From a virus: a stretch of 23,838 bases of DNA. The DNA is taken from positions 1-23,838 of IMG/VR virus record IMGVR_UViG_3300032053_003165; one strand, given 5' to 3'. The translations under genes and the position numbers were made by a program. Shown here piece by piece: positions 2,198-23,504 of this stretch (positions within the stretch are counted from its first letter, which is position 1; each line of letters opens with the position of its first letter). The notes under the pieces are model-generated. The model saw only the letters and a program-made list of their open reading frames with translations, made no database searches and was not told the origin of the DNA.

Positions 2198-2888
2198 GGT
2201 CGCAGTCGTCACGGGCGGACGCAGGGGCATCGGGCGTGCGTGCGCATTAGCATTGAAAGATGCTGGTTACAGAGTTGTAGTGGTCGCTCAAAGTCCGACC
2301 AAAGGCGATATGCCGAAGGATATCGATTATGTGCGAGCTGACCTGTCCAGCCGCGAGAACAGACGCGGGCTGATGTCCGACATTACAGAACTGGTTGGAC
2401 CGCCGGACGTATTGGTAAACAATGCTGGTATTGCACATTCATACTCTGCGATGGATTACCCACTGGGTGAATGGGAAGACATATTAGAAGTCAACCTGAC
2501 TGCCCCATTTGACCTGGCAAGGCAAGCGGTGCATCTGGGAGCTAAGCGCATCATCAACATTGCCAGTATCTCTGCCTTCAATGGAGCGCGTAATATCAGC
2601 GGGTATGCAGCCAGCAAACATGCGCTCATTGGTTTGACTAAGTGTTTATCCAACGAGTGGGCACCTCTGGGAGTGACAGTCAATAACATTGCTCCAGGCT
2701 TTATTCAAACTGATATGCTGACATTCAAAGACGAACAGCACATGAATAATATTATAGGGCGCATACCGGCGGGCAGAATAGGCACTCCGCAAGACGTGGT
2801 GGGTGCGCTGTTGTTCCTGGTATCGGATGCGGCGCAGTACGTGACGGGCACGACTATCGTGGTCGATGGGGGTTGGCTTGGGCGTTGA
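2190..2888 (+). CDS. Short-chain dehydrogenase/reductase (SDR)
   Basis: This 232-aa classical SDR has the NAD(P)-binding TGGRRGIG (residues 8-15), NNAG (77-80), a catalytic Ser at 126 or 128, and YAASK with Tyr139 and Lys143, followed by PGFIQTDM and a C-terminal VDGGWLGR. It resembles FabG-type ketoreductases, but its neighbours NeuC and NeuB suggest a sugar substrate, for example reduction or epimerisation of a nonulosonate precursor; that is inference. The start is TTG 2190, overlapping the NeuB stop. GTG 2181 is an alternative in-frame start, and neither has a strong Shine-Dalgarno site. The 3' end overlaps the first DNA methyltransferase by 23 nt. The last six codons recur at 3540-3560 inside a duplication. 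Confidence 0.87.
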   Translation: MNKVAVVTGGRRGIGRACALALKDAGYRVVVVAQSPTKGDMPKDIDYVRADLSSRENRRGLMSDITELVGPPDVLVNNAGIAHSYSAMDYPLGEWEDILEVNLTAPFDLARQAVHLGAKRIINIASISAFNGARNISGYAASKHALIGLTKCLSNEWAPLGVTVNNIAPGFIQTDMLTFKDEQHMNNIIGRIPAGRIGTPQDVVGALLFLVSDAAQYVTGTTIVVDGGWLGR

Positions 2889-3495
2889 CGTTACTCTGCA
2901 TTTAGGCGACTGCTTAGAATACATGAAAACGATGCCGGATAAGTCGGTGGATGCCGTCATAACCGACCCGCCGTATGGGATAGGAGAGGACGGGGGAGCC
3001 TGCAGGACACGAGGAAGACCGGGATATGCCAAACACGAGGCTCGTGGATGGGACAGCGAAAGACCGTCGCAAGAGTTCTTCGACGAGATTCGGCGCGTGT
3101 CTAATAGGCAGATTATATGGGGCGGTAATTACTTTGCCGACATGCTACCCCCAAAAATGGGGTGGTTGTACTGGCAGAAGCTAATGGGCGGCGACTTCTC
3201 TGACGGGGAGCTGGCTTGGACTTCTTTCGATAGGGCATTGCGAGAGTATACGAAATGCCCGAAGGGAATGGACAAGGAGCATCCAACCCAGAAGCCCGTA
3301 GAGTTGATGAAGTGGTGCGTTGAGATGAGCAAAGCGCAGACCATCTTCGACCCGTTCATGGGCAGTGGCACTACTGGCGTTGCGTGTGTCCATTTGGGGC
3401 GCAACTTCATCGGGTGTGAGATTGACCCGAAATACTTCGCAATAGCAGAGAAGCGGATAAAGCAAGCACAATTACAGGAGCCGTTATTCACATGA
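2866..3495 (+). CDS. DNA amino-methyltransferase (N6-adenine/N4-cytosine), copy 1
   Basis: This 209-aa protein is a small phage-type DNA methyltransferase. It shows the catalytic motif IV DPPYG at residues 34-38, HPTQKP from 139, and the SAM-binding motif FDPFMGSGTTG from 161, followed by GCEIDPKYF. Motif IV before motif I is the beta-class order of N6-adenine and N4-cytosine methyltransferases. The central segment (about 45-135) should carry target recognition. No restriction endonuclease is visible, so it is probably an orphan methylase protecting phage DNA or altering its regulation. The gene begins inside the SDR gene. It shares its first and last parts, but not its middle, with the second methyltransferase just downstream, and its last codons overlap the start of a gene remnant at 3492. 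Confidence 0.9.
   Translation: MGVGLGVDVTLHLGDCLEYMKTMPDKSVDAVITDPPYGIGEDGGACRTRGRPGYAKHEARGWDSERPSQEFFDEIRRVSNRQIIWGGNYFADMLPPKMGWLYWQKLMGGDFSDGELAWTSFDRALREYTKCPKGMDKEHPTQKPVELMKWCVEMSKAQTIFDPFMGSGTTGVACVHLGRNFIGCEIDPKYFAIAEKRIKQAQLQEPLFT
2868..2980 (+). repeat. 5' arm of methyltransferase duplication, copy 1
   Basis: This segment covers the last codons of the SDR gene and the first part of methyltransferase copy 1, and aligns without gaps to 3540-3652. By hand count about 93 of 113 bases match. Nearly all differences are synonymous: only one residue differs (Thr versus Ser) between the shared LGVDVTL and PPYGI. Confidence 0.85.
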
Positions 3496-3539
3496 AAATA
3501 GCAACCGAATGTATCTGTTGTGGAAGCAAGGAACTGGAC
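3400..3539 (+). repeat. 3' arm of methyltransferase duplication, copy 1
   Basis: This is a 140-bp direct repeat of 4111-4250 with only two mismatches (3417 and 3423). Bases 3424-3539 are identical in both copies. It encodes the C-terminus of the methyltransferase and the first 16 codons of the following zinc-ribbon methyltransferase gene. Confidence 0.93.
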
Positions 3540-3560
3540 GGTGGCTGGCTTGGGCGTTGA
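3492..3560 (+). pseudogene. Chimeric gene remnant at duplication junction
   Basis: An ATG at 3492 opens a 22-codon frame. Its first 16 residues (MKIATECICCGSKELD) are identical to the start of the intact zinc-ribbon methyltransferase at 4203, and its last six (GGWLGR, then TGA) are identical to the end of the SDR at 2871-2888. It is therefore a scar joining the head of one gene to the tail of another, left where a second methyltransferase cassette was inserted. It is almost certainly not a functional protein, although its position ahead of the second methyltransferase could allow coupled translation. The junction falls at 3539/3540. Confidence 0.75.
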
Positions 3561-3652
3561 CGTAACCTTACACTTGGGTGACTGCTTGGAATACATGAAG
3601 TCCATGCCCGATAAGTCGGTGGATGCGGTGATAACTGATCCGCCCTATGGAA
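3540..3652 (+). repeat. 5' arm of methyltransferase duplication, copy 2
   Basis: This is the partner of 2868-2980. It begins with a second copy of the SDR 3' end (GGWLGR and stop) and continues through the DPPYGI codons of the second methyltransferase. It is markedly more diverged (about 82 per cent identity by hand) than the 3' arm (about 98.6 per cent). Confidence 0.85.
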
Positions 3653-4206
3653 TAAGAATCGGCGGGAGTGGAAGAATCGGCGGGAGTGGAATGGTTTCGC
3701 CTACACAATATGATGCAGTCAAATGGGACGATGACGGACTGACTAGTGAACAATTAAGTGAGATTAAAAGAATATCAAAAATACAGGTTGTTTTTGGATT
3801 TGAGCACTTAGCAGACATACTTGGAAAAGCAGAAAGCGTAATCGTATGGGACAAGAAAATGAGGAACGGTTGGGATGATAACTTTTCGGATTGCGAAATA
3901 GCGTGGTCAAATCTAAAAAAACCAACTAAAGTGTTTCGTCATTTATGGATGGGCGCACTAAGAGAAGAGAAAATAGTCAGACAGCATCCGACACAAAAAC
4001 CAGAAGAAGTAATGCGCTATATCATAGAACGTGCCACGAAGGACGGCGACACCATCTTCGACCCCTTTATGGGTTCAGGCACGACCGGCGTAGCCTGTGT
4101 TCAACTAGGGCGCAACTTCATCGGGTGCGAGATCGACCCGAAATACTTCGCAATAGCAGAGAAGCGGATAAAGCAAGCACAATTACAGGAGCCGTTATTC
4201 ACATGA
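3541..4206 (+). CDS. DNA amino-methyltransferase (N6-adenine/N4-cytosine), copy 2
   Basis: This 221-aa paralogue of the preceding methylase has DPPYG at residues 33-37, HPTQKP, and FDPFMGSGTTG from 173, so it has the same beta-class motif order. The N-terminal 35 and C-terminal 50 or so residues are nearly identical to copy 1. The middle differs throughout and its DNA is visibly richer in A and T (about 3715-3990), so a different target sequence is likely. The start is GTG 3541, because AAGGA at 3528-3532 lies eight bases upstream. GTG 3520 in the same frame would add seven residues derived from out-of-frame remnant sequence and has no clear ribosome site. Directly after DPPYGI, a six-residue block is duplicated in tandem (3654-3689). 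The 3' end overlaps the next gene. Confidence 0.88.
   Translation: MAGLGVDVTLHLGDCLEYMKSMPDKSVDAVITDPPYGIRIGGSGRIGGSGMVSPTQYDAVKWDDDGLTSEQLSEIKRISKIQVVFGFEHLADILGKAESVIVWDKKMRNGWDDNFSDCEIAWSNLKKPTKVFRHLWMGALREEKIVRQHPTQKPEEVMRYIIERATKDGDTIFDPFMGSGTTGVACVQLGRNFIGCEIDPKYFAIAEKRIKQAQLQEPLFT
3654..3689 (+). repeat. 18-bp perfect tandem duplication inside methyltransferase copy 2
   Basis: Two identical 18-bp units (3654-3671 and 3672-3689) follow each other in frame and encode RIGGSG-type residues twice, immediately after the catalytic DPPYG motif. Copy 1 has no such glycine/serine insert here. Confidence 0.9.
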
Positions 4207-4250: not shown

Positions 4251-5006
4251 AGTTGGAAGGCAGAGGTCATGCCGTTCGTGGCTTGGCGCACGTTCGCGCA
4301 GCTATACGAATATGGTGGAGACTTCGACGAAGATAGAAAGTGTCACAGTTTGCGCTGTCGCGATTGTGGCGTGACGTTTCTGGATTGGAGATATTCGGAT
4401 AATGAAATATCGCGTCTATATGACGGATACCGTAACGAAGAATATGTTGCTTCGCGCGAGATGTTCGAGCCGGGCTACCGAATGCGACAACTTGGCTTCA
4501 GCGGCAGATTGCACTACATTCCACAGGTGGAAGAATTTCTACTGCCGTTTCTTTCACCCGATAATATTGTTACCGATTGGGGAACAGATAATGGATATTA
4601 CGCGCCACACTATCTCATCCTGGATTGGGGTGGGGGCAGTGGCATTAACACGCCGTTTCGCGAAACTTCGGCGGACGTGTTCGACATCAGCGGGGTACAG
4701 CCGGAATACGGAAGGCTGATTGATAAACCGGGCAAGTACGACCTGATCGTATTCGCTAACGTCATCGAACATACACCCGATCCAGCGCGTGAATTGGAAC
4801 GTATTAAGAAGCATATGCGGGGCGTCCTGTACATCGAAGTTAGCCTGGATAACGCAACGGATAAAAAGCGCTGGCACGAACACATAAATTTATTCACAGA
4901 GAAGTCGTTAATTGAACTGGTAACGCGCTGTAAATTAAATATTGTGGACATGAAACTATTAAACTCACCCCCCTATCATCCCTTCTTAATGGCGGTCAAA
5001 TTATGA
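4203..5006 (+). CDS. Zinc-ribbon class I SAM-dependent methyltransferase
   Basis: This 267-aa protein has an N-terminal cysteine cluster (C7, C9, C10, then C52-x-x-C55) that looks like a zinc-binding ribbon. A Rossmann methyltransferase domain follows, with motif I DWGGGSG at 141-147, a YDLIVFANVIEH stretch typical of motif II/IV regions, and HEHINLFTEKSL near the end. The architecture is like small-molecule or sugar methyltransferases from surface-polysaccharide and natural-product clusters (Methyltransf_23 type with a zinc-binding head) rather than DNA methylases. ATG 4203 overlaps the preceding stop, and the gene ends with an ATGA overlap into the radical SAM gene, so the two are probably made together. 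A duplicated copy of its first 16 codons survives at 3492. The substrate is unknown; a sugar in this cassette is the simplest guess. Confidence 0.82.
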   Translation: MKIATECICCGSKELDSWKAEVMPFVAWRTFAQLYEYGGDFDEDRKCHSLRCRDCGVTFLDWRYSDNEISRLYDGYRNEEYVASREMFEPGYRMRQLGFSGRLHYIPQVEEFLLPFLSPDNIVTDWGTDNGYYAPHYLILDWGGGSGINTPFRETSADVFDISGVQPEYGRLIDKPGKYDLIVFANVIEHTPDPARELERIKKHMRGVLYIEVSLDNATDKKRWHEHINLFTEKSLIELVTRCKLNIVDMKLLNSPPYHPFLMAVKL

Positions 5007-6013
5007 GAATTCAAGGCTGTGATCTGCGCAATAAAGAGCGCGTCAAACTACAGGATGTAGTCCCATTGGATACGCCTATGCTGATGTACCTGGAGCCGAC
5101 TAACCTGTGCAACCTGGAATGCTCATTCTGTCCAACGGCTGACAGACCGTTGCTTAGAAGCGTAGGTAGACCGGCGGGCATTATGAAGTGGGATCTATTT
5201 GCCAAGATCGTAGATGACCTGAAGCAGTTCCCGCGTCCGCTCAAGATGATAAACATTTACAAGGACGGGGAGCCGTTGCTAAATCAGAACCTGCCTGAAA
5301 TGGTGCGCTATCTTAAAGAGGCGGGTGTGACCGAAAAGGTCTGGATGAAGACCAACGGATTATTATTGACGCCCGCCTTGAACGACCGACTGGCAGATTG
5401 CGGGCTGGACATGATCGGAATATCCGTCATTGCCCCACATGATACCGGCTACGAAAAGACGGCTCACAAGAAGATAAATTACAACTCTCTGGTAGCCAAC
5501 GTATGGGATCTACATCGCCGCAAAACGAGACCGCAAATATATGTCAAGATGGCGGATGTCGGTTTCAATCAAGATGAGATAGATAAGTTTTACAGGAACT
5601 TCGAGCCGATCAGCGATTATATTGCCGTGGAAAACTTACACGGTTGGAGCCGCACCGACTTGAAGGATTTCACGCTCGGCAAGGCTACGGATACGTTTGA
5701 CGGGTTACCGAATAAGAATAAGATCGTTTGCCCGTGGACGTTGTACCAGATGACCATCAATTGGAACGGGACGGTACAACCCTGCAATGAGGACTGGAGC
5801 TGGGCAAATATCATGGGGGACGCAAGTAAGGAAAGCCTGGTGGATATCTGGAACGGAAAGACCCTGCGTGATTTTCAGCGTATGCACCTGGAAGGCAGAC
5901 GCGCCGAGAGCAAAGCGTGTGCCACGTGCTGGCAGATAATGTCGCAGGTGGATGACGTGGACGTATATCGATCACAGATATTGGAGCGATTAAATGGCAC
6001 CTCCCATTCTTGA
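5003..6013 (+). CDS. Radical SAM/SPASM domain protein
   Basis: This 336-aa protein has the radical SAM 4Fe-4S motif C36-x3-C40-x2-C43 (CNLECSFC) followed by conserved-looking KDGEPLLN and KTNG stretches. A C-terminal SPASM-like cluster is formed by C243 (CPW), C261 (PCNEDW), C306 and C309 (ACATCW), with GDASKESLVDIWNG between, the usual layout of a SPASM tail. Such enzymes make 5'-deoxyadenosyl radicals to modify peptides, sugars or cofactors. No RiPP precursor peptide is obvious nearby. It is coupled by ATGA to the upstream zinc-ribbon methyltransferase, and its 3' end overlaps the head morphogenesis gene by 20 nt, so the accessory cassette is transcribed into the head genes. The fold is certain; the substrate is unknown. 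Confidence 0.88.
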   Translation: MRIQGCDLRNKERVKLQDVVPLDTPMLMYLEPTNLCNLECSFCPTADRPLLRSVGRPAGIMKWDLFAKIVDDLKQFPRPLKMINIYKDGEPLLNQNLPEMVRYLKEAGVTEKVWMKTNGLLLTPALNDRLADCGLDMIGISVIAPHDTGYEKTAHKKINYNSLVANVWDLHRRKTRPQIYVKMADVGFNQDEIDKFYRNFEPISDYIAVENLHGWSRTDLKDFTLGKATDTFDGLPNKNKIVCPWTLYQMTINWNGTVQPCNEDWSWANIMGDASKESLVDIWNGKTLRDFQRMHLEGRRAESKACATCWQIMSQVDDVDVYRSQILERLNGTSHS

Positions 6014-8898: not shown

Positions 8899-10086
8899 AT
8901 GAGAATTGCTTGGACTTCCAACGCTCCCTGGTCGTGCACGGGCTATGGTTGCCAGACGCGGCATATCACACAGCGACTGATAGATAAAGGACATCCCACC
9001 GCCATCATTGCCAATTATGGTCATCAGGGCACACCGTTGATGATTAACAACCTGCTCATATATGGTCAGGCTTATCACCCGTTCTGTGCTGATGTTATGG
9101 ATGCACACTGTAACGACTTCAAAGCGGATATTCTGATTTCGTTCATCGACATCTGGGTCATGCAAGGGAACGACATCAAAACGCGTTGGGCTATGTGGAT
9201 ACCGGTTGACCATGACCCTATTCCCCCGCCAGTCGCAGCCGTCGCACGCACCGCTTATCACCGTATCGCCTGTTCCAAGTTTGGAGCGGAGAAAATTCAA
9301 GAAGCCGGAATGGATTGTGATTACATTCCTTGCGGCGTTGAAACTGATGTGTATAAACCGTCCGAATTATCGGATGAAGAGCGCAAAATAACCGGATTGA
9401 CCAAAGACCGCTTTATTGTGGGCATGGTGGCCGCCAACAAGGGTGATCCCCCACGCAAAGCGTTCTGGCAGAACATATCCGCCTTTGTCGAATTACACAA
9501 GAAACACCCGGACGCGTTACTGTACCTGCACACAATGGATGGGCACCCACAAATGGGTGAGCAGATCGACATCCTGGCTTATTGCGTCAAGGAAGGATTA
9601 AAGCCTGGCATTGACGTCATCTTTCCGAATAAATATCAACTCACCCTCGGCTATGCAGATCAATTCATGGCGAAGTTGTATAGCGCAATGGACGTGCACA
9701 TGCTGGTGTCGATGGGCGAAGGATTTGGAATACCGCTCATAGAGGCACAGGCTTGCGGGACACCGGTCATTACCGGCGATTGGACGAGTACAGGAGAATT
9801 GGTCTGGTCTGGTTGGAAAGTACCGAAGTCAGAGACCGTCCCGTTCTGGGGCGCATTGCAGTCTAATTTATTTATGCCCAAAGTGGGTGCGATAGTTGAC
9901 CGGCTCGAAGCTGCCTACGAAATGAAGGGTAACCAGGAATACCGTGAGCGCGCCGTCAAGGGTGCAAAAGCCTATGACCAGGATCGCATTATGGAAAAAT
10001 ATTGGATGCCTACCTTGAAGAAAATCGAGGACAAAATCGCTGGAGAAGGCAAAACAGAATACAGCATGAACGGGGTCAAGCAATGA
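8899..10086 (+). CDS. GT-B (GT4-like) glycosyltransferase
   Basis: This 395-aa protein has the two-Rossmann GT-B layout. The N-terminal half has an acceptor-domain opening (TSNAPWSCTGYG), and the C-terminal half has FIVGMVAANKGDPPRK and the GT4 E-x7-E motif EGFGIPLIEAQACGTPVI, with E274 and E282 as the expected donor-binding glutamates. Such enzymes transfer a sugar from a nucleotide donor with retention of configuration. No signal peptide or membrane segment is seen, so it acts in the cytoplasm. No strong ribosome site is visible before ATG 8899. It couples by ATGA to a second glycosyltransferase. Its place right after the capsid gene suggests virion glycosylation, although host surface modification is also possible. 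Confidence 0.87.
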   Translation: MRIAWTSNAPWSCTGYGCQTRHITQRLIDKGHPTAIIANYGHQGTPLMINNLLIYGQAYHPFCADVMDAHCNDFKADILISFIDIWVMQGNDIKTRWAMWIPVDHDPIPPPVAAVARTAYHRIACSKFGAEKIQEAGMDCDYIPCGVETDVYKPSELSDEERKITGLTKDRFIVGMVAANKGDPPRKAFWQNISAFVELHKKHPDALLYLHTMDGHPQMGEQIDILAYCVKEGLKPGIDVIFPNKYQLTLGYADQFMAKLYSAMDVHMLVSMGEGFGIPLIEAQACGTPVITGDWTSTGELVWSGWKVPKSETVPFWGALQSNLFMPKVGAIVDRLEAAYEMKGNQEYRERAVKGAKAYDQDRIMEKYWMPTLKKIEDKIAGEGKTEYSMNGVKQ

Positions 10087-15448: not shown

Positions 15449-17532
15449 TGAGTACAAAAATTGCATCATTCTACGCCGAAATATCCGCAAAAGATACCCT
15501 TACCCCCGCCTTGAGAGGTACAAAGGGTGCGCTTGATTCGGTAAAGACCATGATGGGTAGCGTGGCTATGGCGGCTGGTATCTTGGCGGGCGCATACCTG
15601 GCAGGAAAAAAGGTCGTTGATGATACGGTGGGTTCTTACGTCGACCTTGCCAACAGCGTGCGCACACTAAATCAAGTAAACGGGGATTCGTCCGAAAATA
15701 ATTCGCGCCTGATCCAGACGTTGGATGATTATAAGATAAGCACTGACCAGGTACTTGTTGCACAGCGGGCAATGGCAAAAGAGGGTAAATCCATGACCAT
15801 CCCGACATTAATGGAAATGTCGGACGCTTATTTGCGCTTGAATAACGGGGCGGAGAAACAACAATTTCTTACCAATAATTTTGGTAAGGCCGGAGTTGCT
15901 TTTGCCGAAGTCATGTCAAAAGGCAGCGATGCTATTTCGGCACAAGCCGATTCGATTTCCAAAAATTTGATATTGACCGACCAGGCAGTACAGAAAGCCA
16001 GAGCATATGAAACCGCTCAAGATAACCTCGCGGATGCAGCCGAAGGACTCAAGGTAGCTATCGGTCAACAGCTTGCTCCTGTCCTGACAACGGTTGCGAA
16101 CAACATGGCGACCACCATCGAAGGTGCTTCGACGATGGGGAGCGCTTTTGATGGATTAAGCGTAAAAACCGCCGAGAATGCGAGAAGTTATGAGAATTAC
16201 AACCGCGCCATGATGGATTTTTTCGACACATTGAGTTTTGGCGAGAAAGTAATGTCTGTCAATGCCTTCAAACAATCTTTAATGTCCGAGGCAATGTATA
16301 ACGCCATAAGCGCTTCTGACCAGAATAAAGATGCAACCGGACGGGCAACTAAAGCTCAAACAGATTACGCTGCCGCCCTGGAGGCTTCAAAGCTGTCTAT
16401 GGCGGGTTTGGATGAAGCTTCTGTCGCCGCAATGGCAACTAATGCATCGTTTGTAGGATTACTAGACCAGATGCAGGCGGCAGAAACATCGTTTCAAGAA
16501 ACATCAATGTCTCTTGAAGAAGAACGCGCTGGGTTGATTCAAGAAAAAGAAGAATATATCTTTAACGCGCGACAATGGGGTATTGACCAAATCGAAAAAT
16601 ATCAAGATGCACTGAAGGATACTACCCTCACAGAAGAAGAGCGGGCTAAAATAGCGGGGAAAATTGCCTGGCTCGAAGGGGACGCGTGGCTGAACGTATC
16701 TGATACAGTAACTGGTCTTAATGACAAGATTGAAGAAAACAGCAATGCAATTGAAGAAAATGCGCGAAAACACCAAGAAGCCAACCAAAAAATAATATTC
16801 GGTTATATATCACAAGAGTTGGCAGCCGACGGCTTAACAGAGCAGGAAACTACTGGATTACTCGCTCTTGGTGTGAAGTGGGGTATTTATTCTGACACAA
16901 TTATTGCAGAAGCCACCACTGCGAGAAATGAAGCCAATGCAATACTCGCTGGGATAGAAGACAAGGGTGTTAAATTAAATATAGGTGTAACTGTAGGTTT
17001 GACAGATTTTACATCCAGCGATTCAAATTTAGCCAGAAGTTTATTCGACGGTACGTTTGTGTTTCCAAAAACCGAGACCAATATAACTGCGGTAGTCGAT
17101 AAGAAGCAAGTTGATGACCTAATGACAACTATGACGGACTTCGAGAAGCCTCACGAAACGGAAGCTAAAGTTATAGTCAGTTTTACAGGCGATCTTGTCC
17201 GATATGATTTCTTGATGAATAATTCCAACGGGGGTGGTAGTTGGAATGGGGATTATGATTACAAGTGGACGGGCGGCGTTATCGGTTCCGGACAAACCGC
17301 ACTGGTGGGTGACATGCCGGGAGGAATACCGACGCCTTACTCGGAAATGGTTGAAGCCATTCCAGGCGGGGGCGTCAAGGTCTACAACGCCAACGAGACC
17401 CGCTCTAAGATGGGCGGGGGTATGCGCTCGTTCGCGGGCGGGGGCGAGATAGGTGGGGGCAAATCCGACCCAATAGACTATGACAGACTGGCTATCATAG
17501 TACGCGACGCAGTGTTGCAGGCGGTCAGATGA
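15448..17532 (+). CDS. Tail tape measure protein
   Basis: This 694-aa protein starts at GTG 15448 behind AAGGTGAG and overlaps the chaperone extension stop. It opens with a tape-measure-like N-terminus (FYAEISAKDTLTPALRGTKG) and a hydrophobic Ala/Gly segment (about 35-58). Long helical and coiled-coil stretches follow (notably 350-450, rich in E, K, Q). It ends in a Gly-rich segment (GGGMRSFAGGGEIGGG) and a final helix. Tape measure length sets tail length; at roughly 1.5 angstrom per residue this implies a tail near 100 nm. The middle (about 16500-17150) is more AT-rich than its surroundings. No lytic transglycosylase or peptidase domain is seen. It is ATGA-coupled to the next gene. Confidence 0.88.
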   Translation: MSTKIASFYAEISAKDTLTPALRGTKGALDSVKTMMGSVAMAAGILAGAYLAGKKVVDDTVGSYVDLANSVRTLNQVNGDSSENNSRLIQTLDDYKISTDQVLVAQRAMAKEGKSMTIPTLMEMSDAYLRLNNGAEKQQFLTNNFGKAGVAFAEVMSKGSDAISAQADSISKNLILTDQAVQKARAYETAQDNLADAAEGLKVAIGQQLAPVLTTVANNMATTIEGASTMGSAFDGLSVKTAENARSYENYNRAMMDFFDTLSFGEKVMSVNAFKQSLMSEAMYNAISASDQNKDATGRATKAQTDYAAALEASKLSMAGLDEASVAAMATNASFVGLLDQMQAAETSFQETSMSLEEERAGLIQEKEEYIFNARQWGIDQIEKYQDALKDTTLTEEERAKIAGKIAWLEGDAWLNVSDTVTGLNDKIEENSNAIEENARKHQEANQKIIFGYISQELAADGLTEQETTGLLALGVKWGIYSDTIIAEATTARNEANAILAGIEDKGVKLNIGVTVGLTDFTSSDSNLARSLFDGTFVFPKTETNITAVVDKKQVDDLMTTMTDFEKPHETEAKVIVSFTGDLVRYDFLMNNSNGGGSWNGDYDYKWTGGVIGSGQTALVGDMPGGIPTPYSEMVEAIPGGGVKVYNANETRSKMGGGMRSFAGGGEIGGGKSDPIDYDRLAIIVRDAVLQAVR

Positions 17533-20384
17533 CATTAAACGCAGCTGTCGCATTGTGGGTGAAGCCCGTCGCTACCTGGGTAAATATTACCAGCGACGTG
17601 GTTGACAACTACAACTTTAGCGCGGGCTTACCGGGCAGTGGGGCTACCGATCTGGTGGCACGCACCGGGCAATTATCATTCGTTCTGGATAATTCATCAT
17701 CCACTTATACGCCGGGGGCGGTAAGCGCATTGAGCGGGTGGAAGTCCGGTATCCCGGCTAAACTCGTGGTCACTTACGACGGGGAGACGTTCATCCGCTT
17801 TTATGGACAGATAAGCAGTATCAATATATCCGCGGGTATATACGACGAGCGCACCGTGGAAGTGACCGTCGTGGACTGGATGGATAACGCCGCAAAGTAC
17901 AACGTGAGCGGGGTGAATATCACGGCTGACCAAACGGCTGACCAGGTGATAACCACCATCAAGTCCGGCATGCCCGTCAAACCAATCTCATCCGACCTGG
18001 ATACTGGTATCAATACCTTTCCACAATCATTCGATACTGTCACGACCACGACTAAAGCATTGTCTGAATTCAATAAAATAGCGAACAGTGAGTTCGGTTA
18101 TGTTTATTTGAAGAAGGACGCGGCTCATGGCGAGACGCTGGTGTTCGACAACAATCAGGCGCGTAATGGGATGCGACAGTTGGATGTCCTGCCAATGGGT
18201 TCCAGTGAAACAGCCAATCTACTGGCAGAAGACAGCACGTCTCTACTGGCAGAGGACGGGGAAGCGTTAAACGTCAATACGCCGAGAAGCGCTATTTTCA
18301 ACGATGGAATGTTCTCCGACCTGAAAGTCACTTATGGCAAGGGACTGGTAAATCGTTTCACCGTCAAGGTCGAACCTAAAAAGGAAGACACTACCCCGCA
18401 AATATTATTCAGCCTGCAGAAGCGGGCTAAACTCGCCTCCGGCATACTCACACACGTTACGGGTGCATTTTCCGACCCGGACGGTGGTAAGCCGATCACG
18501 GGCAAGAATATGATAACTCCCGTGGGTACCACGGACTACACCATGTACACCAATTGGGATGGGACGGGTTCGAATATCACTGGTGACCTGACCATCGTGG
18601 CTACTTATTCGGCTGAGAGTGTCACTTATGATTTGACGAATGGTAATACCGCGACGGGTTACGTCTGGGTACAGGCGCGCGGGTACGGGGTATATCCTGA
18701 TTACCCGGTGGAATACGAAGCCACGGATGGAACGTCTATTGCGGCTTACGGTGACCAGAGCAAGAGCATCAACCAACCCTATCTGCAGGATATTGCTCCG
18801 GGCGCGTTGGAAGCCGAAAAGATCGTAGAGCGCGAGAAACGTCCTCACCTGGAAGCCTCCGAAGTGTCCTTTATTGCCAACAAGAGCGACGAGAATATGC
18901 AGGCGTTCCTAAATATCGATATCGGCTCGTTGGTCAATATCAGTGAGACACAAACGGGTATCAATGGTTATTTCTACGTCCAGAGCATAACCGCGACCAT
19001 CATCGGCGAGGGAAGTAATTCCATCATCTGGTTCACCTGGAAATTGCGCCAACAGTACAGCTTGCGCAATGGGTTATCGCTAATTCCGCTTGTGTTCTCC
19101 GCTGCCAATGCCTACGCCATTGATTGGGGACAGATACCCTATTTGTGGAATGTCAACACGCGCACCATCAGCGTGTGGGTAAATCAGTCCAGTCGTGGGA
19201 CGGTAAACAACACCATCCTGGCAATGACCAGCGGGTACGCGGGCTGGTGGTTGGGGATAACCACCGCTGGTTCTGTCCAGTTTGTCCAGTGTTCGTCTGT
19301 CACGAACGGGACATGGGTAGGTGGTTTTATTCCATTAGGTACAGTAACTAATATTGTTGTGAGTCGTAATTCGGCAAATAATGCCAATAATCCGGATTTC
19401 TATATAAATGGAGTCACGTCCTCTCCAGTTGTATTAAGCACTCCGGCGGGGACAATAGCCGAGGACGGATTATATCTGACCACCGGAAATTATAAATCCG
19501 CGACTTTTGTACTCGGTGGCGGTTTTGGCGGCACCATCAATGACGTGCGTATCTATGATTCGGTTATCGGCGCGACTGGTATTACAAGTTTATACAATGC
19601 CGGAATTGCCGGCACGCAAATTGCCTCGCTCGATAGCGTCATGCAGTTTCAAGCGCCATGCATTCGGGCGGAGTACATATCTGATTACGTCACCAACGGG
19701 ATCGGGAACAGTTGGAACCTGTTGGACAACTGTTTCGGGGTGGTCGGCAAGGTCATCGGCACCGGACTACCGTCCCTGCCGGGAACGGTAACCTACACGA
19801 CCCAGCCGACTGAAACGGACGGGATCGACAACTACATGAGTGATGACGCTCTGGGTGGAATTATCACCAACTATGGTACCGCGACGACCATGTATATTGG
19901 CAACAGTAGTGGCATTACTGTACGCGGGTTGTTAAAATTTGATCTGACCAAAGGCACGAACTCCCCACCGACCAACGCATCTGTCATATCCGCAACGATG
20001 TATCTCACCCCGGTTGTGGATATGAGTACCAGCGCGCGGACGCTAAATGTCTACCGCTGCTTGCGTGATTGGGGCGAATTGACCTCGACCTGGTTGACCT
20101 GGAACGGGACAAATAACTGGTCAGCATACGGGGCAAATAACACGACCAACGACCGCGAATCAACTCCGCTCGGGAGCGTGGCAGTATCAGAATCATTGAC
20201 ATTGAATACGCCCGTCGCAATAACCCTTAATGCTGCCAAAGTACAGGAATGGATAAACGGGGCAACATCCAACTATGGCATGGTGATTAGAACGGACGCC
20301 GAGGGTGCGGATGTGTACCAGTGGGCATCCTCCAGTCACGCAACGGCCGCGTACCGCCCTAAGTTGGTGATTATTTACGTGTAG
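17529..20384 (+). CDS. Large tail tip/receptor-binding protein with LamG-like and DNRLRE-like domains
   Basis: This 951-aa protein follows the tape measure, the place of distal tail/hub proteins. Residues 1-530 are beta-rich, begin WVNITSDVVDNYNFSAGL, and carry a hub-like region with the phage motif LLAEDSTSLLAEDGEAL. Residues about 535-690 resemble a LamG/concanavalin fold (RTISVWVNQSS, GWWLGI, then DVRIYD and SLYNAG). Residues about 760-951 match the DNRLRE type (DNYMSDDALGG, RGLLKFDLT, WGELTSTWLTWN, then LNAAKVQEWINGATSNYGMV and AAYRPKLVIIY). LamG and DNRLRE modules are known from surface carbohydrate-binding proteins, so this is the best candidate for host glycan recognition. A single protein seems to merge hub and receptor-binding roles. 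Confidence 0.75.
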   Translation: MTLNAAVALWVKPVATWVNITSDVVDNYNFSAGLPGSGATDLVARTGQLSFVLDNSSSTYTPGAVSALSGWKSGIPAKLVVTYDGETFIRFYGQISSINISAGIYDERTVEVTVVDWMDNAAKYNVSGVNITADQTADQVITTIKSGMPVKPISSDLDTGINTFPQSFDTVTTTTKALSEFNKIANSEFGYVYLKKDAAHGETLVFDNNQARNGMRQLDVLPMGSSETANLLAEDSTSLLAEDGEALNVNTPRSAIFNDGMFSDLKVTYGKGLVNRFTVKVEPKKEDTTPQILFSLQKRAKLASGILTHVTGAFSDPDGGKPITGKNMITPVGTTDYTMYTNWDGTGSNITGDLTIVATYSAESVTYDLTNGNTATGYVWVQARGYGVYPDYPVEYEATDGTSIAAYGDQSKSINQPYLQDIAPGALEAEKIVEREKRPHLEASEVSFIANKSDENMQAFLNIDIGSLVNISETQTGINGYFYVQSITATIIGEGSNSIIWFTWKLRQQYSLRNGLSLIPLVFSAANAYAIDWGQIPYLWNVNTRTISVWVNQSSRGTVNNTILAMTSGYAGWWLGITTAGSVQFVQCSSVTNGTWVGGFIPLGTVTNIVVSRNSANNANNPDFYINGVTSSPVVLSTPAGTIAEDGLYLTTGNYKSATFVLGGGFGGTINDVRIYDSVIGATGITSLYNAGIAGTQIASLDSVMQFQAPCIRAEYISDYVTNGIGNSWNLLDNCFGVVGKVIGTGLPSLPGTVTYTTQPTETDGIDNYMSDDALGGIITNYGTATTMYIGNSSGITVRGLLKFDLTKGTNSPPTNASVISATMYLTPVVDMSTSARTLNVYRCLRDWGELTSTWLTWNGTNNWSAYGANNTTNDRESTPLGSVAVSESLTLNTPVAITLNAAKVQEWINGATSNYGMVIRTDAEGADVYQWASSSHATAAYRPKLVIIYV

Positions 20385-20392
20385 GAGTAATT

Positions 20393-21067
20393 ATGGCAAA
20401 GATAAGTTCATTAACTGAATTAGCTGTCGAACCCGCGACCGACGATGTGTTCGCAGTCGTGGACACAAGCGTTACCACTACCAAAAAAATACAGTGGGCA
20501 ACGATAAAGGCGTTATTCCCAACCCACGATCTGGCTACCGCCGCCTCCGATTTTCTGGTTGCCTCCGGCTCGGGCGCGTGGATAAAGAAGACGCTGGCAC
20601 AGACAATGGCGCTGCTCGGGATCGACCCATACGGCGCGCCAAAGTACGTGATGAGAACCGGTATCGGTACGGTGACAAATTCGACAACTTTAGCCAATGA
20701 CTCAACGCTGTTATTTCCAGTCAGTGCCAATCAGTGGTACGGGTTCTTTGCCGACCTGTACTACAACTCAAAGGGGACTACAGCTGACTTCAAGTGTGGC
20801 TGGTCGGTTCCAGCCGGAGCGACCATGTACTGGAATAATTCGAACGCCTCCGAAACGCTTACCGACGTTCCATCCGTCGTACTGACCGAAGGTTCTGTCG
20901 CGGCAAGACCGGGTGCGAACTATTACACGCGGGCTAATTTCTCCGGAATAATTAACATGGGTACCACCCCTGGAACGGTCTACCTCCAGTGGGCACAGAA
21001 TACGGCGGGCACAACCAACTTACTCCTATCAGTCGGCTCCAATATTTGCTACTGGCGAGGTGGATAA
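20393..21067 (+). CDS. Fibre-like tail/virion protein
   Basis: This 224-aa protein has TAGGAG upstream of ATG 20393. The N-terminus (MAKISSLTELAVEPATDDVFAV and VDTSVTTTKKIQWATIK) is the opening found on many phage fibre and appendage proteins, a short trimerising or attachment segment. The rest is beta-rich with many aromatic residues and a jelly-roll-like look (FADLYYNSKGTTADFKCGW and YLQWAQNTAGTTNLLLSVGS). It is probably a tail fibre or tip protein with a small C-terminal receptor or structural domain. Confidence 0.72.
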   Translation: MAKISSLTELAVEPATDDVFAVVDTSVTTTKKIQWATIKALFPTHDLATAASDFLVASGSGAWIKKTLAQTMALLGIDPYGAPKYVMRTGIGTVTNSTTLANDSTLLFPVSANQWYGFFADLYYNSKGTTADFKCGWSVPAGATMYWNNSNASETLTDVPSVVLTEGSVAARPGANYYTRANFSGIINMGTTPGTVYLQWAQNTAGTTNLLLSVGSNICYWRGG

Positions 21068-21068
21068 C

Positions 21069-21338
21069 ATGGCAACAAACACAGAGAAAATTGACGCAAT
21101 ACTAAAAATAGTCCAGGAGATCCAGACCCAGAACGTAGTCCAGGCGTTGGAGATAGAAGACTTGCAAGATTGCACAAAAGAACACGATGCGGATATTGAC
21201 GGGAATGGTAACCCTGGACTGAAAGCCGACATGGGGATGGTCAAGGCAAATTTAAAACTGATAAATTGGATTGGGGGAATTATCACCGCCGCAGTCGTAC
21301 TGGACGCGGTATCCAGGCTCATTTTATTGGTACATTAG
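21069..21338 (+). CDS. Small coiled-coil membrane protein, holin-like
   Basis: This 89-aa protein has an N-terminal coiled coil (about 5-62) and one C-terminal membrane-spanning segment (about 65-88, WIGGIITAAVVLDAVSRLILLV). That layout resembles XhlA-type haemolysin/holin partners. ATG 21069 is preferred to GTG 21060 because GAGGTGG lies just upstream. Its place after the last tail gene is where lysis genes are often found, but no endolysin is visible, so the lysis role is only a guess. Confidence 0.5.
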   Translation: MATNTEKIDAILKIVQEIQTQNVVQALEIEDLQDCTKEHDADIDGNGNPGLKADMGMVKANLKLINWIGGIITAAVVLDAVSRLILLVH

Positions 21339-21351
21339 GAAAGGATGACCA

Positions 21352-22161
21352 TTGACTAAAATAACTGTAGTCGCAGTCTCGGATTTACATATCAACTTTA
21401 CTGGTGGTTTATGTCCGCCAAGCGTGCAACTCGACGATGGTGGGACTTATCTACCCTCAAAACCACAACGGGTTTTATGGAAGGCGTGGTTGGATTTTTG
21501 CGAAAAGGCGCATTCTGTTAAAAATCCAGTGTATGTTATTTTAAACGGGGATATTGTGGAAGCGGATGGATCCAAAAGTTTACAGCATATTTCCCGTAAT
21601 AAATCCACTATTCACGACATGGCAATGACCGCTCTATCTCCGCTAACAGACAGGGCGGAAAAGGTTTTTATTGTCAGAGGAACAGAGTATCATGTCGGAC
21701 AGAGTTCCCCAAGCGAAGAAATGATAGCAAAGGATCTGGTTAATATTGTCCCTTACGATAAAAGGGGTGCGTTTTCCTGGTGGTATTTGAGAACAAAAAT
21801 CGCGGGAGTTAGATTCGACGTTGCTCATCATATTTCGATGGGGTTCGCTCCCTGGACGGAAAAAAACGCATCAAACAAATTGGCGGTTCAACTCATGTAT
21901 GAATACGCAGAATGGGAGGAACCCTATCCTCATATTGCTCTACGAGGACATATGCATCGTCTTTCGGATAGCGGTATAAATTTTCCTATCCATGCCTTGA
22001 CCATGCCATGCTGGTGCATGAAATCTGCATTCACCCACAGGATCGGACGTGGAAACGATATGCCAAAAATAGGCGGGTTGATAATAACCTGTGAAGACGG
22101 TAAAGCAGATGTAGAGGCGGTGATGTATAGACCTCACAGAGACGAAATGAGGAACGAATGA
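21352..22161 (+). CDS. Calcineurin-like metallophosphoesterase
   Basis: This 269-aa protein has the metallophosphoesterase motifs in order: D11-x-H13 (VSDLH), G66-D67-x2-E (NGDIVEADG), RGTEYHVG at 109-116 in place of the usual GNH(D/E), H159/H160 (AHH), and G199-H200-M-H202. Two-metal phosphoesterases of this kind cleave phosphomonoesters or diesters; nucleic acid or nucleotide substrates are usual in phages. The start is TTG 21352 with AAGGATG upstream; no ATG fits the frame nearby. It is ATGA-coupled to the small gene downstream. The replaced Asn in motif III suggests a distinct subfamily rather than an inactive enzyme, since all His and Asp ligands remain. Confidence 0.85.
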   Translation: MTKITVVAVSDLHINFTGGLCPPSVQLDDGGTYLPSKPQRVLWKAWLDFCEKAHSVKNPVYVILNGDIVEADGSKSLQHISRNKSTIHDMAMTALSPLTDRAEKVFIVRGTEYHVGQSSPSEEMIAKDLVNIVPYDKRGAFSWWYLRTKIAGVRFDVAHHISMGFAPWTEKNASNKLAVQLMYEYAEWEEPYPHIALRGHMHRLSDSGINFPIHALTMPCWCMKSAFTHRIGRGNDMPKIGGLIITCEDGKADVEAVMYRPHRDEMRNE

Positions 22162-22415
22162 CAATCGTTTCTGAAAACGAGTTAGGTATAAGTAATGACG
22201 ATTTTTGGAAAGAACTTTATAAAGACGTACCTATTCCGCTCAAACCTGGAGAAAAGACCGTTCCAATGATGATTGACGAAATACCGGATAGAAGTTGCGA
22301 ATATCAAACCATGAGCAACATGGTCAAGAAGTGGGTCAAGGAAGGCAAGCTGGTATCTGTCGGTATGCGAATATCAAACGGGAAGCTGGCACAAGCCTAT
22401 AAGGTTGTGGTATGA
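22158..22415 (+). CDS. 85-aa hypothetical protein, possibly winged-helix-like
   Basis: This small protein is ATGA-coupled to the metallophosphoesterase and ends right before the structured RNA region. The C-terminal half (YQTMSNMVKKWVKEGKLVS, then GKLAQAYKV) has the helix-turn-strand pattern of a small winged helix, where a recognition helix is followed by a KEGKL turn and a beta wing. The N-terminus is acidic. No family is recognised, and DNA binding is only suggested by the pattern. Confidence 0.6.
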   Translation: MTIVSENELGISNDDFWKELYKDVPIPLKPGEKTVPMMIDEIPDRSCEYQTMSNMVKKWVKEGKLVSVGMRISNGKLAQAYKVVV

Positions 22416-22416
22416 T
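22408..22416 (+). promoter_or_regulatory. Extended -10 promoter candidate for the structured RNA
   Basis: TGGTATGAT at 22408-22416 matches an extended -10 element (TGn plus TATGAT, one change from TATAAT). Transcription would start near 22423, some 20 bases before the first strong helix. It overlaps the stop codon of the preceding gene, and there is no good -35, so this may be coincidence. Confidence 0.33.
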
Positions 22417-22439
22417 TTTATTAACTCTAATCCATTGAG

Positions 22440-22919
22440 CTACATTAGTCGGAGCGTAAAAGGCGTATCAGGTACAAGTAACCGAATCAATAGGGTGCAA
22501 TTCCCTACCCGACTAAATTGGTGCATCGAGGGCAATCGTCACTAAGGCGTATTGCGGGGGTGTGGCGAGCCAGAGCGGACAACGTAATGCGTGACGGATG
22601 ACCCCACCACGCAGAGCACGCAGGTAACGCCATCTTGGGAGCGGACGTCATCGCCTAAAGCTCCGACTACATCGCAATGTTGAGCGACCTGGACACCATG
22701 AATACGGGTCTTATGCTGGTGGTATGTCCCACCAACAAGACATTAAAGAGAAAGTCACCTGTCCTGCCTGATCGGCGAAGTGGTGAGACTACGAAGGCTT
22801 GTCGGATTATGTTATAGCCTTACCTACCATGAGTAGGCAAAGATCTGAAGCCCCCGCAAGGGGGCTGATGCCAGTCAGCAACTCCCGAACCGCCATGTGA
22901 GGTGGTTCGGGAGTTAGCT
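22440..22919 (+). ncRNA. Candidate large structured noncoding RNA, class unknown
   Basis: These 480 bases hold no credible ORF in a genome that is otherwise packed with overlapping genes, and they are dense in local helices. Pairings I can see are: 22445-22452 with 22509-22516 (8 bp); 22491-22495 with 22503-22507 (7-base loop); 22532-22536 with 22551-22555; 22638-22642 with 22660-22664; 22708-22712 with 22737-22741 enclosing 22717-22722 with 22729-22734; 22794-22799 with 22816-22821; 22823-22827 with 22833-22837; 22849-22855 with 22860-22866 (GCAA loop); and a long terminal stem 22877-22919. GNRA-type loops and stacked helices suggest a folded RNA rather than spacer. Phage-borne large ornate RNAs such as GOLLD and ROOL are the obvious comparison. 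Several short strings also recall group II intron domain I, but no domain V was found. Confidence 0.6.
22877..22919 (+). other. Long terminal hairpin of the structured region
   Basis: A 15-bp stem (22880-22894 with 22901-22915, one G-T pair) has a 6-base loop and is extended by three more pairs (22877-22879 with 22917-22919) around a single bulged A at 22916. There is no T-tract after it, so it is not a normal intrinsic terminator. It probably closes the RNA described above or protects its 3' end. Confidence 0.75.
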
Positions 22920-22948
22920 TATACTAATCCAGATTATTATAATCATGG

Positions 22949-23276: not shown

Positions 23277-23303
23277 GATGATATAAACTAATAGGAGTTG
23301 AAT

Positions 23304-23504
23304 ATGGCTGATAAACGATTACTAATTTCTATCGATGACGAAACCAGGCGCAAGCTGACCGCGATTGCCAAAGAGGAAAACCGGAGCATGGCGGGGGAAA
23401 TCCGCAACCTAATCAACGAGCGGTACGATGCGCTATTCGTGGCCATCCCGAAGATCGAGATCCCCACCAACGGGAAGATCGTGTACCCACAAAGGCAGGA
23501 GTAG
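23304..23504 (+). CDS. Ribbon-helix-helix (Arc/CopG-like) DNA-binding protein
   Basis: This 66-aa protein has the ribbon-helix-helix pattern: a short strand (KRLLISI, residues 4-10), DDETRRKLTAIAKEENRS as helix 1 and turn, and MAGEIRNLINERYDAL as helix 2. A less conserved tail follows. Such proteins dimerise and insert the paired strands in the DNA major groove, usually repressing their own promoter or acting as phage regulators. ATG 23304 is chosen because AGGAG at 23292-23296 lies at proper spacing; TTG 23298 is an upstream in-frame alternative without one. The AT-rich region upstream is a plausible operator. The next gene begins two bases after its stop. Confidence 0.85.
   Translation: MADKRLLISIDDETRRKLTAIAKEENRSMAGEIRNLINERYDALFVAIPKIEIPTNGKIVYPQRQE

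Follow-up and report, generated by a model that had tools for sequence, protein, structure and literature searches.

A conserved tRNA-like RNA domain in a gene-free gap of a tailed phage genome and in other uncultivated phages

Introduction

What does a tailed phage keep in a long stretch of DNA that carries no recognizable gene? The question is raised by a 23,838-base linear virus record, analyzed here over its whole length (the window), whose plus strand carries throughout the genes of a tailed phage, including those for head morphogenesis, scaffolding, head-tail connectors, the tape measure and a large tail protein. An earlier note on this DNA had singled out positions 22440-22919 as a candidate large structured RNA, similar in size, density and location to ROOL and GOLLD, which are long noncoding phage RNAs sometimes found near tRNAs (PMC12286853). 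The analysis presented below indicates that the conserved unit is a much smaller domain with tRNA-like loops, and the conclusion that this domain represents a previously undescribed family of phage RNAs with a tRNA-like elbow, belonging to none of the Rfam 15 families, is well supported. To our knowledge, structured RNAs that have covariation support and are yet unnamed are uncommon, and tRNA-like elbows are rare beyond tRNA, tmRNA, the ends of plant viruses and yjdF.

Results

The gap and its gene setting

As had been proposed, the gap follows late genes. The tail genes are succeeded by a small, putatively holin-like protein whose C-terminus is hydrophobic (21060-21338), a metallophosphoesterase-like gene (21352..22161, plus strand) named from its motifs SDLH, NGD and GHMHR and without a match in a Pfam search, and an 85-aa gene (22158..22415, plus strand) that stops 30 nt 5' of the first helix of the domain described below. 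No ORF with a protein match occurs between 22416 and 23297, and the gene at 23298..23504 (plus strand) is predicted to encode a ribbon-helix-helix (Arc-like) regulator (PF22513, 2e-5, below its cut-off; phrog_3431, 2.5e-4). The claim that some 480 bases lack any credible ORF was borne out in that no ORF of at least 60 aa lies wholly within 22440-22919 on either strand, and ten of the longest stop-free frames had no Pfam match (best E 0.2), on which ground a decayed gene was also rejected. The extent of the gap had been underestimated: because the ORF-free stretch reaches as far as 23298, where the next gene probably starts, it measures about 880 nt and not about 480.

The large tail protein (17529-20384) ends in a Disaggregatase-related repeat domain (Disaggr_repeat, PF06848), a possible sign of an archaeal host, whether Methanosarcina-like or another; together with the presence of a relative of the phosphoesterase in a Methanomicrobiales virus, this domain is a hint of a methanogen host for the window. 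Among the head genes are also found a radical SAM protein (phrog_21308, 5003-6013) and a glycosyltransferase (phrog_2170, 8899-10086). Two adjoining ORFs (2866-3495 and 3520-4206) match the same part of the DNA methyltransferase family phrog_67; they are either two genes in tandem or the product of a duplication.

Fold strength is concentrated at the 3' side

Measured against 25 dinucleotide shuffles, the stretch 22440-22919 reached z -4.7 on the plus strand and -6.6 on the minus strand, plus-strand tiles elsewhere in the window ranging from -2.8 to +2.0; the slightly longer 22416-22935 reached -3.6. The middle of the stretch (22516-22845) taken alone gave z +0.14, no better than shuffled sequence, and attained -4.0 only once the 3' hairpins were added to it. 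These two hairpins, both on the plus strand and both present as the earlier note had described them, are the source of most of the fold signal: a 7-bp hairpin with a GCAA tetraloop (22849..22866) and a 15-bp hairpin closing the 3' side (22880..22915; stem 22880-22894/22901-22915). No T-run follows the latter stem, and terminator prediction at this hairpin was negative. Of the nine helices that had been read by eye, most of those in the middle are thus at chance level. Since the fold energy is this uneven, the nine helices are not by themselves evidence for a large ornate RNA.

A domain with D-loop-like and T-loop blocks recurs in other phages

The T-loop-like hairpin GGGTGCAATTCCCTACC was chosen as the query because it offered the best structural clue, and IMG/VR was scanned with a pattern based on it (GGGTGCAATTCCCNACC), yielding 41 loci; findable members are accordingly limited to IMG/VR contigs with the exact T block. 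Five of these loci (L023, L032, L033, L045 and L054) carry, like the window, the block GCGTAANAGGCG 5' of the T-loop. This second block lies outside the search pattern, is absent from all other loci compared and, by an arithmetic estimate, would be expected by chance about 0.002 times in the approximately 6 kb concerned. L045 and L054 are identical in sequence, and the family therefore comprises five independent members including the window, that is, at least four further independent uncultivated phage contigs with the domain. The search for homologues in IMG/VR thereby upheld the candidate as a recurring element of phage contigs.

The domain common to these five sequences (22446..22515, plus strand, as are all of its parts) is composed of four helices, P1 to P4, and includes a D-loop-like block, AGCGTAANAGGCGT, and a T-loop block, GGGTGCAATTCCCYACC, both of them nearly invariant. 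P1 pairs TAGTCGG (22446..22452) with CCGACTA (22509..22515). The D-loop-like block AGCGTAAAAGGCGT (22453..22466) contains P2 (22454-22456/22464-22466) and the loop TAAAAGG; within it, GCGTAANAGGCGT is invariant in all five members even though it lies outside the search pattern. P3 (22471..22483) is a variable middle hairpin, GGT/ACC when the window domain is folded alone, in an arm whose length among members goes from about 20 to 110 nt, so that the whole domain spans some 70-150 nt across the family. The T-loop block (22493..22509), which supplied the search pattern, contains P4 (22493-22495/22503-22505) and the loop TGCAATT. The loops TGCAATT and TAANAGG are found in 5/5 members; equivalents of U54, C56, R57 and A58 are present in the T-loop, as is a GG in the D-like loop. 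Folded in isolation, the window copy forms a cloverleaf-like four-way junction, and by analogy with the tRNA elbow the D-like loop probably docks with the T-loop.

P1 covaries among the five members. Its sequence is different in each of them (TAGTCGG/CCGACTA, TGCTCCG/CGGAGCA, CCGGCG/CGCCGG, CCACAG/CTGTGG and ATGCCAG/CTGGCAT), with both sides changed in six of the seven pairs; the covariation score is 0.585 versus 0.124, and none of 500 shuffles reached it. Over the structure, 96.9% of cells are paired, against 42-54% in slid controls. In every member P1 abuts both blocks without gaps, lying one nucleotide before GCG and sharing the last C of YACC, so that the blocks dictate how it is aligned and no fitting is involved. 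Neither P2 (GCG/CGT) nor P4 (GGG/CCC, part of the search pattern) varies, which leaves conservation as the sole argument for these two helices. A covariance model (R1; seed alignment A4), built from the very members that it scores, gave 76.7 bits at 22446..22515, 68.8-86.1 bits across members and 27.6 bits for the next locus. In our estimation, these sequences very probably represent a conserved and hitherto undescribed family of tRNA-like phage RNAs.

A perfect long-range complement (22446-22455/22660-22669) would form a 10-bp helix in competition with P1 and P2, and is 8.7 kcal/mol better by the energy model. As a conserved switch this helix was rejected, for despite a p value of 0.004 in the window the relatives are without it; the comparison of sequences supports the local helix 22446-22452/22509-22515 over the 10-bp alternative.

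Contexts in the relatives

The domain is intergenic and co-directional with the neighboring genes in all five phages, in otherwise varied settings. In L045 it lies about 57 nt 3' of genes for tRNA-Trp and tRNA-Met, and both small ORFs and the terminase gene come after it; about 17 nt separate the domain end from an AAGGAGG site with a GTG start. In L033 it is located 3' of a RecT-like gene, and in L032 its neighbors are genes without recognized families. Beyond the first ~70 nt, similarity to the window is kept in one of the four relatives, L023, and three of the five members are without the longer extension. L023 shares a second conserved block (22521..22560, plus strand; 78% identity over 41 nt, 31.0 bits, the best of 60 shuffles reaching 22.9) with a CGTC-ACTAA-GGCG hairpin at 22537-22549, a weaker block near window positions 22671-22691, and an AT-rich flank (TTATACTAATCCAGATTATTATAAT at 22919..22943, plus strand, in the window; TTATANTAATCCNGATTATNATAAT in L023; 88% identity over 25 nt), which may serve the transcription unit that follows as its operator or promoter. 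The noncoding stretch of L023 has a z of -4.8, and in both phages the next gene starts 780-970 nt from the domain.

Gene order is likewise shared with L023: GH25 endolysin, short protein, metallophosphoesterase-like gene, RNA and ribbon-helix-helix-like gene. This synteny is one of predicted function with homology unproven, because pairwise BLAST found no significant similarity between the phosphoesterases of the window and L023. GH25 lysins being muramidases, the one in L023 suggests that this phage infects bacteria.

Comparison with known RNAs

In keeping with the proposal that the element belongs to no known class, Rfam matches to the stretch as a whole did not rise above chance, and none of the Rfam 15 families matched the domain at gathering score. 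Low-threshold scans of L045, L032 and L023 returned weak and mutually inconsistent matches, among them a tymovirus tRNA-like structure (L045, L032) and an FMN fragment. No ROOL, GOLLD, group I or HEARO match was obtained in the Rfam scans, which weigh more than an additional, equally negative ROOL search run without a positive control. A likeness to group II introns seen by eye (CGACTNNRTCGCAATGTT and the GAACCGCC hairpin) was dropped for want of a homologue or significant alignment; group II domain V (RF00029) gave nothing at E<=10 under conditions in which control genomes matched. RAGATH-21 (RF03097) was rejected as well, L045 alone matching at 15.9 bits against a cut-off of 70.3 and the other members missing or matching elsewhere; control genomes matched in this search too.

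A close structural parallel is the yjdF aptamer, which has four helices and two conserved loops equivalent to the D-loop and T-loop of tRNA (PMC9142559). The domain resembles it in its helices P1-P4 and in these loop equivalents, but differs in its phage setting and in that its members share neither a downstream gene nor an expression platform, and the yjdF model (RF01764) had no match at E<=10 in the five contigs, whereas control genomes matched, two of them above the cut-off. With tRNA and tmRNA the domain has in common the GG of the D-like loop and, in the case of the permuted tmRNAs of L029, L030, L034 and others, an identical T-arm (GGG-TGCAATT-CCC); unlike them, it lacks a CCA, a tag ORF and an anticodon arm of constant size. 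A 6-7 bp covarying stem occupies the place of the acceptor, but the sequences 3' of it are AATT, ATTA, TATT, CATA and TTCC. The tRNA model (RF00005) and ARAGORN were negative on the domain, L045 yielding only its two true tRNAs, and no tmRNA gene was called by ARAGORN at default settings, forced low-threshold matches being noise. FMN riboswitches share the T-loop hairpin followed by NACC, their P2/L2 module being the same as the T block; this module alone matches, the remainder of the aptamer is absent from the domain, and the full FMN model (RF00050) scored 7.5-15.2 bits against a cut-off of 66.2. L024, found through the shared module, is itself an FMN riboswitch as judged from its sequence.

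Other searches were unproductive. Blastn of the whole stretch against 50,697 phage and 72,556 plasmid records gave nothing notable; genome contigs scanned by RNA pattern and, separately, by phosphoesterase gave no matches; and searches of isolate phages, for which each of the two blocks and the corresponding regions of the relatives served as queries, returned only FMN riboswitches or unconvincing matches. L002 carries the flanking phosphoesterase at 75% DNA identity and has no RNA 3' of this gene, in vir555 the phosphoesterase is followed by an unannotated gap that shares only a GC-rich hairpin, and a match in L008 from a back-translated search of 22659-22814 proved spurious.

Discussion

Any proposed role has to be set against the observed conservation, covariation and orientation of the domain, its partial synteny with L023 and its absence from Rfam. 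Our tentative preference, held at clearly less than even confidence, is for an operon-embedded processing and stability element that acts as a tRNA mimic. The domain would fold as such within a polycistronic phage transcript and be recognized by the tRNA-handling machinery of the host, for instance by RNase P, acting where P1 begins on its 5' side, or would simply block exonucleases; either way, the end of the downstream RNA would be defined and protected. In the window, the protected RNA would be a noncoding late-transcript tail reaching to the hairpins at 22849-22915, ahead of the flank of the next regulator. Transcription, processing and the tertiary elbow are all inferred. A processing or protecting tRNA mimic would explain both the independence from context and the proximity to tRNAs. 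The free middle arm and the missing CCA argue against decoding or charging; charging is unlikely, and recognition by bacterial RNase P weak, because there is neither a CCA end nor a constant discriminator base. The D-like block is more strictly conserved than RNase P needs, which could reflect a specific ligand or protein.

The strict conservation of both loops suits an aptamer equally well, yjdF being an example of an aptamer with such a fold (PMC9142559), and we rank a ligand-binding leader controlling the next gene through a yjdF-type D-loop/T-loop elbow as the main rival of the processing element, as a somewhat unlikely one. The yjdF riboswitch binds azaaromatic ligands and activates translation. 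The four-helix layout and loop-loop logic of the domain resemble this aptamer (PMC9142559), two strictly conserved loops with free arms are typical of aptamers, the T block is the FMN P2/L2 module, and in L045 the AAGGAGG site and GTG codon follow about 17 nt after the domain; however, downstream genes share nothing across members, the next gene in the window and L023 begins only after 780-970 nt, no common expression platform is seen, and the matches to known aptamers are absent (yjdF) or partial and below cut-off (FMN). Alternatively, the domain could act in trans by binding, or serving as a decoy for, a protein of the phage or its host, such as a tRNA-modifying enzyme, a nuclease or an EF-Tu-like factor. 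The tRNA-like loops, the unconstrained middle arm and the variety of settings, one of them beside tRNAs, fit such a site, which we nevertheless consider unlikely given that no partner gene is common to the five loci and that a promoter of its own is not evident in most of them.

The reading of the whole ~480-540 nt as one ornate ROOL/GOLLD-type RNA, whose 5' part the tRNA-like domain would form, draws on the comparably long and stably folding noncoding stretch of L023 and on the second block and 3' flank shared with it. The single dense RNA that the earlier note had envisaged found no support, as the middle folds no better than shuffled sequence, the extension is kept by one relative in four and no ROOL or GOLLD match was obtained; the likeness to these RNAs comes down to a long noncoding stretch in a phage, the conserved unit here being about 70 nt, and we regard this reading as quite improbable. 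Least credible, to the point of being very improbable, is an origin by decay of a tRNA gene or as an attP copy of the end of a host tRNA, or a resemblance due to chance. The cloverleaf-like fold, the T-loop and the tRNA genes adjoining the L045 copy would agree with such an origin, but tRNA model and ARAGORN find no match, compensatory change has kept P1 paired, contrary to decay, and an attP copy would carry only the 3' part of a tRNA and no identical D-like block across unrelated phages.

It is a real possibility, rated by us a little short of even, that the domain stands for an uncatalogued and widespread family of phage tRNA mimics, portable modules placed before genes, beside tRNAs or at the head of noncoding tails, with a new role as an aptamer class or in anti-host mimicry. 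If phages do carry a portable tRNA mimic, it would provide a testable handle on operon processing or on the exploitation of host tRNA enzymes, and seed alignment A4 and model R1 allow the family to be searched for at scale.

Further structured RNAs were noted among the loci inspected. Permuted tmRNA genes occur in the IMG/VR phage contigs L029, L030, L034, L036, L041, L043 and L049, some beside tRNA-Leu, and an abiF RNA (RF03085) barely over its cut-off was found at L009:1834-1870(-) in the environmental phage genome MW202647. A 428-kb phage contig carries, directly 3' of a sigma-70-like promoter, another cloverleaf-like RNA (L048:4171-4240(-)) with the same T arm and a GTCAGG/CCTGAC stem, which scores 27.6 bits with R1 and perhaps represents a second tRNA-like family.
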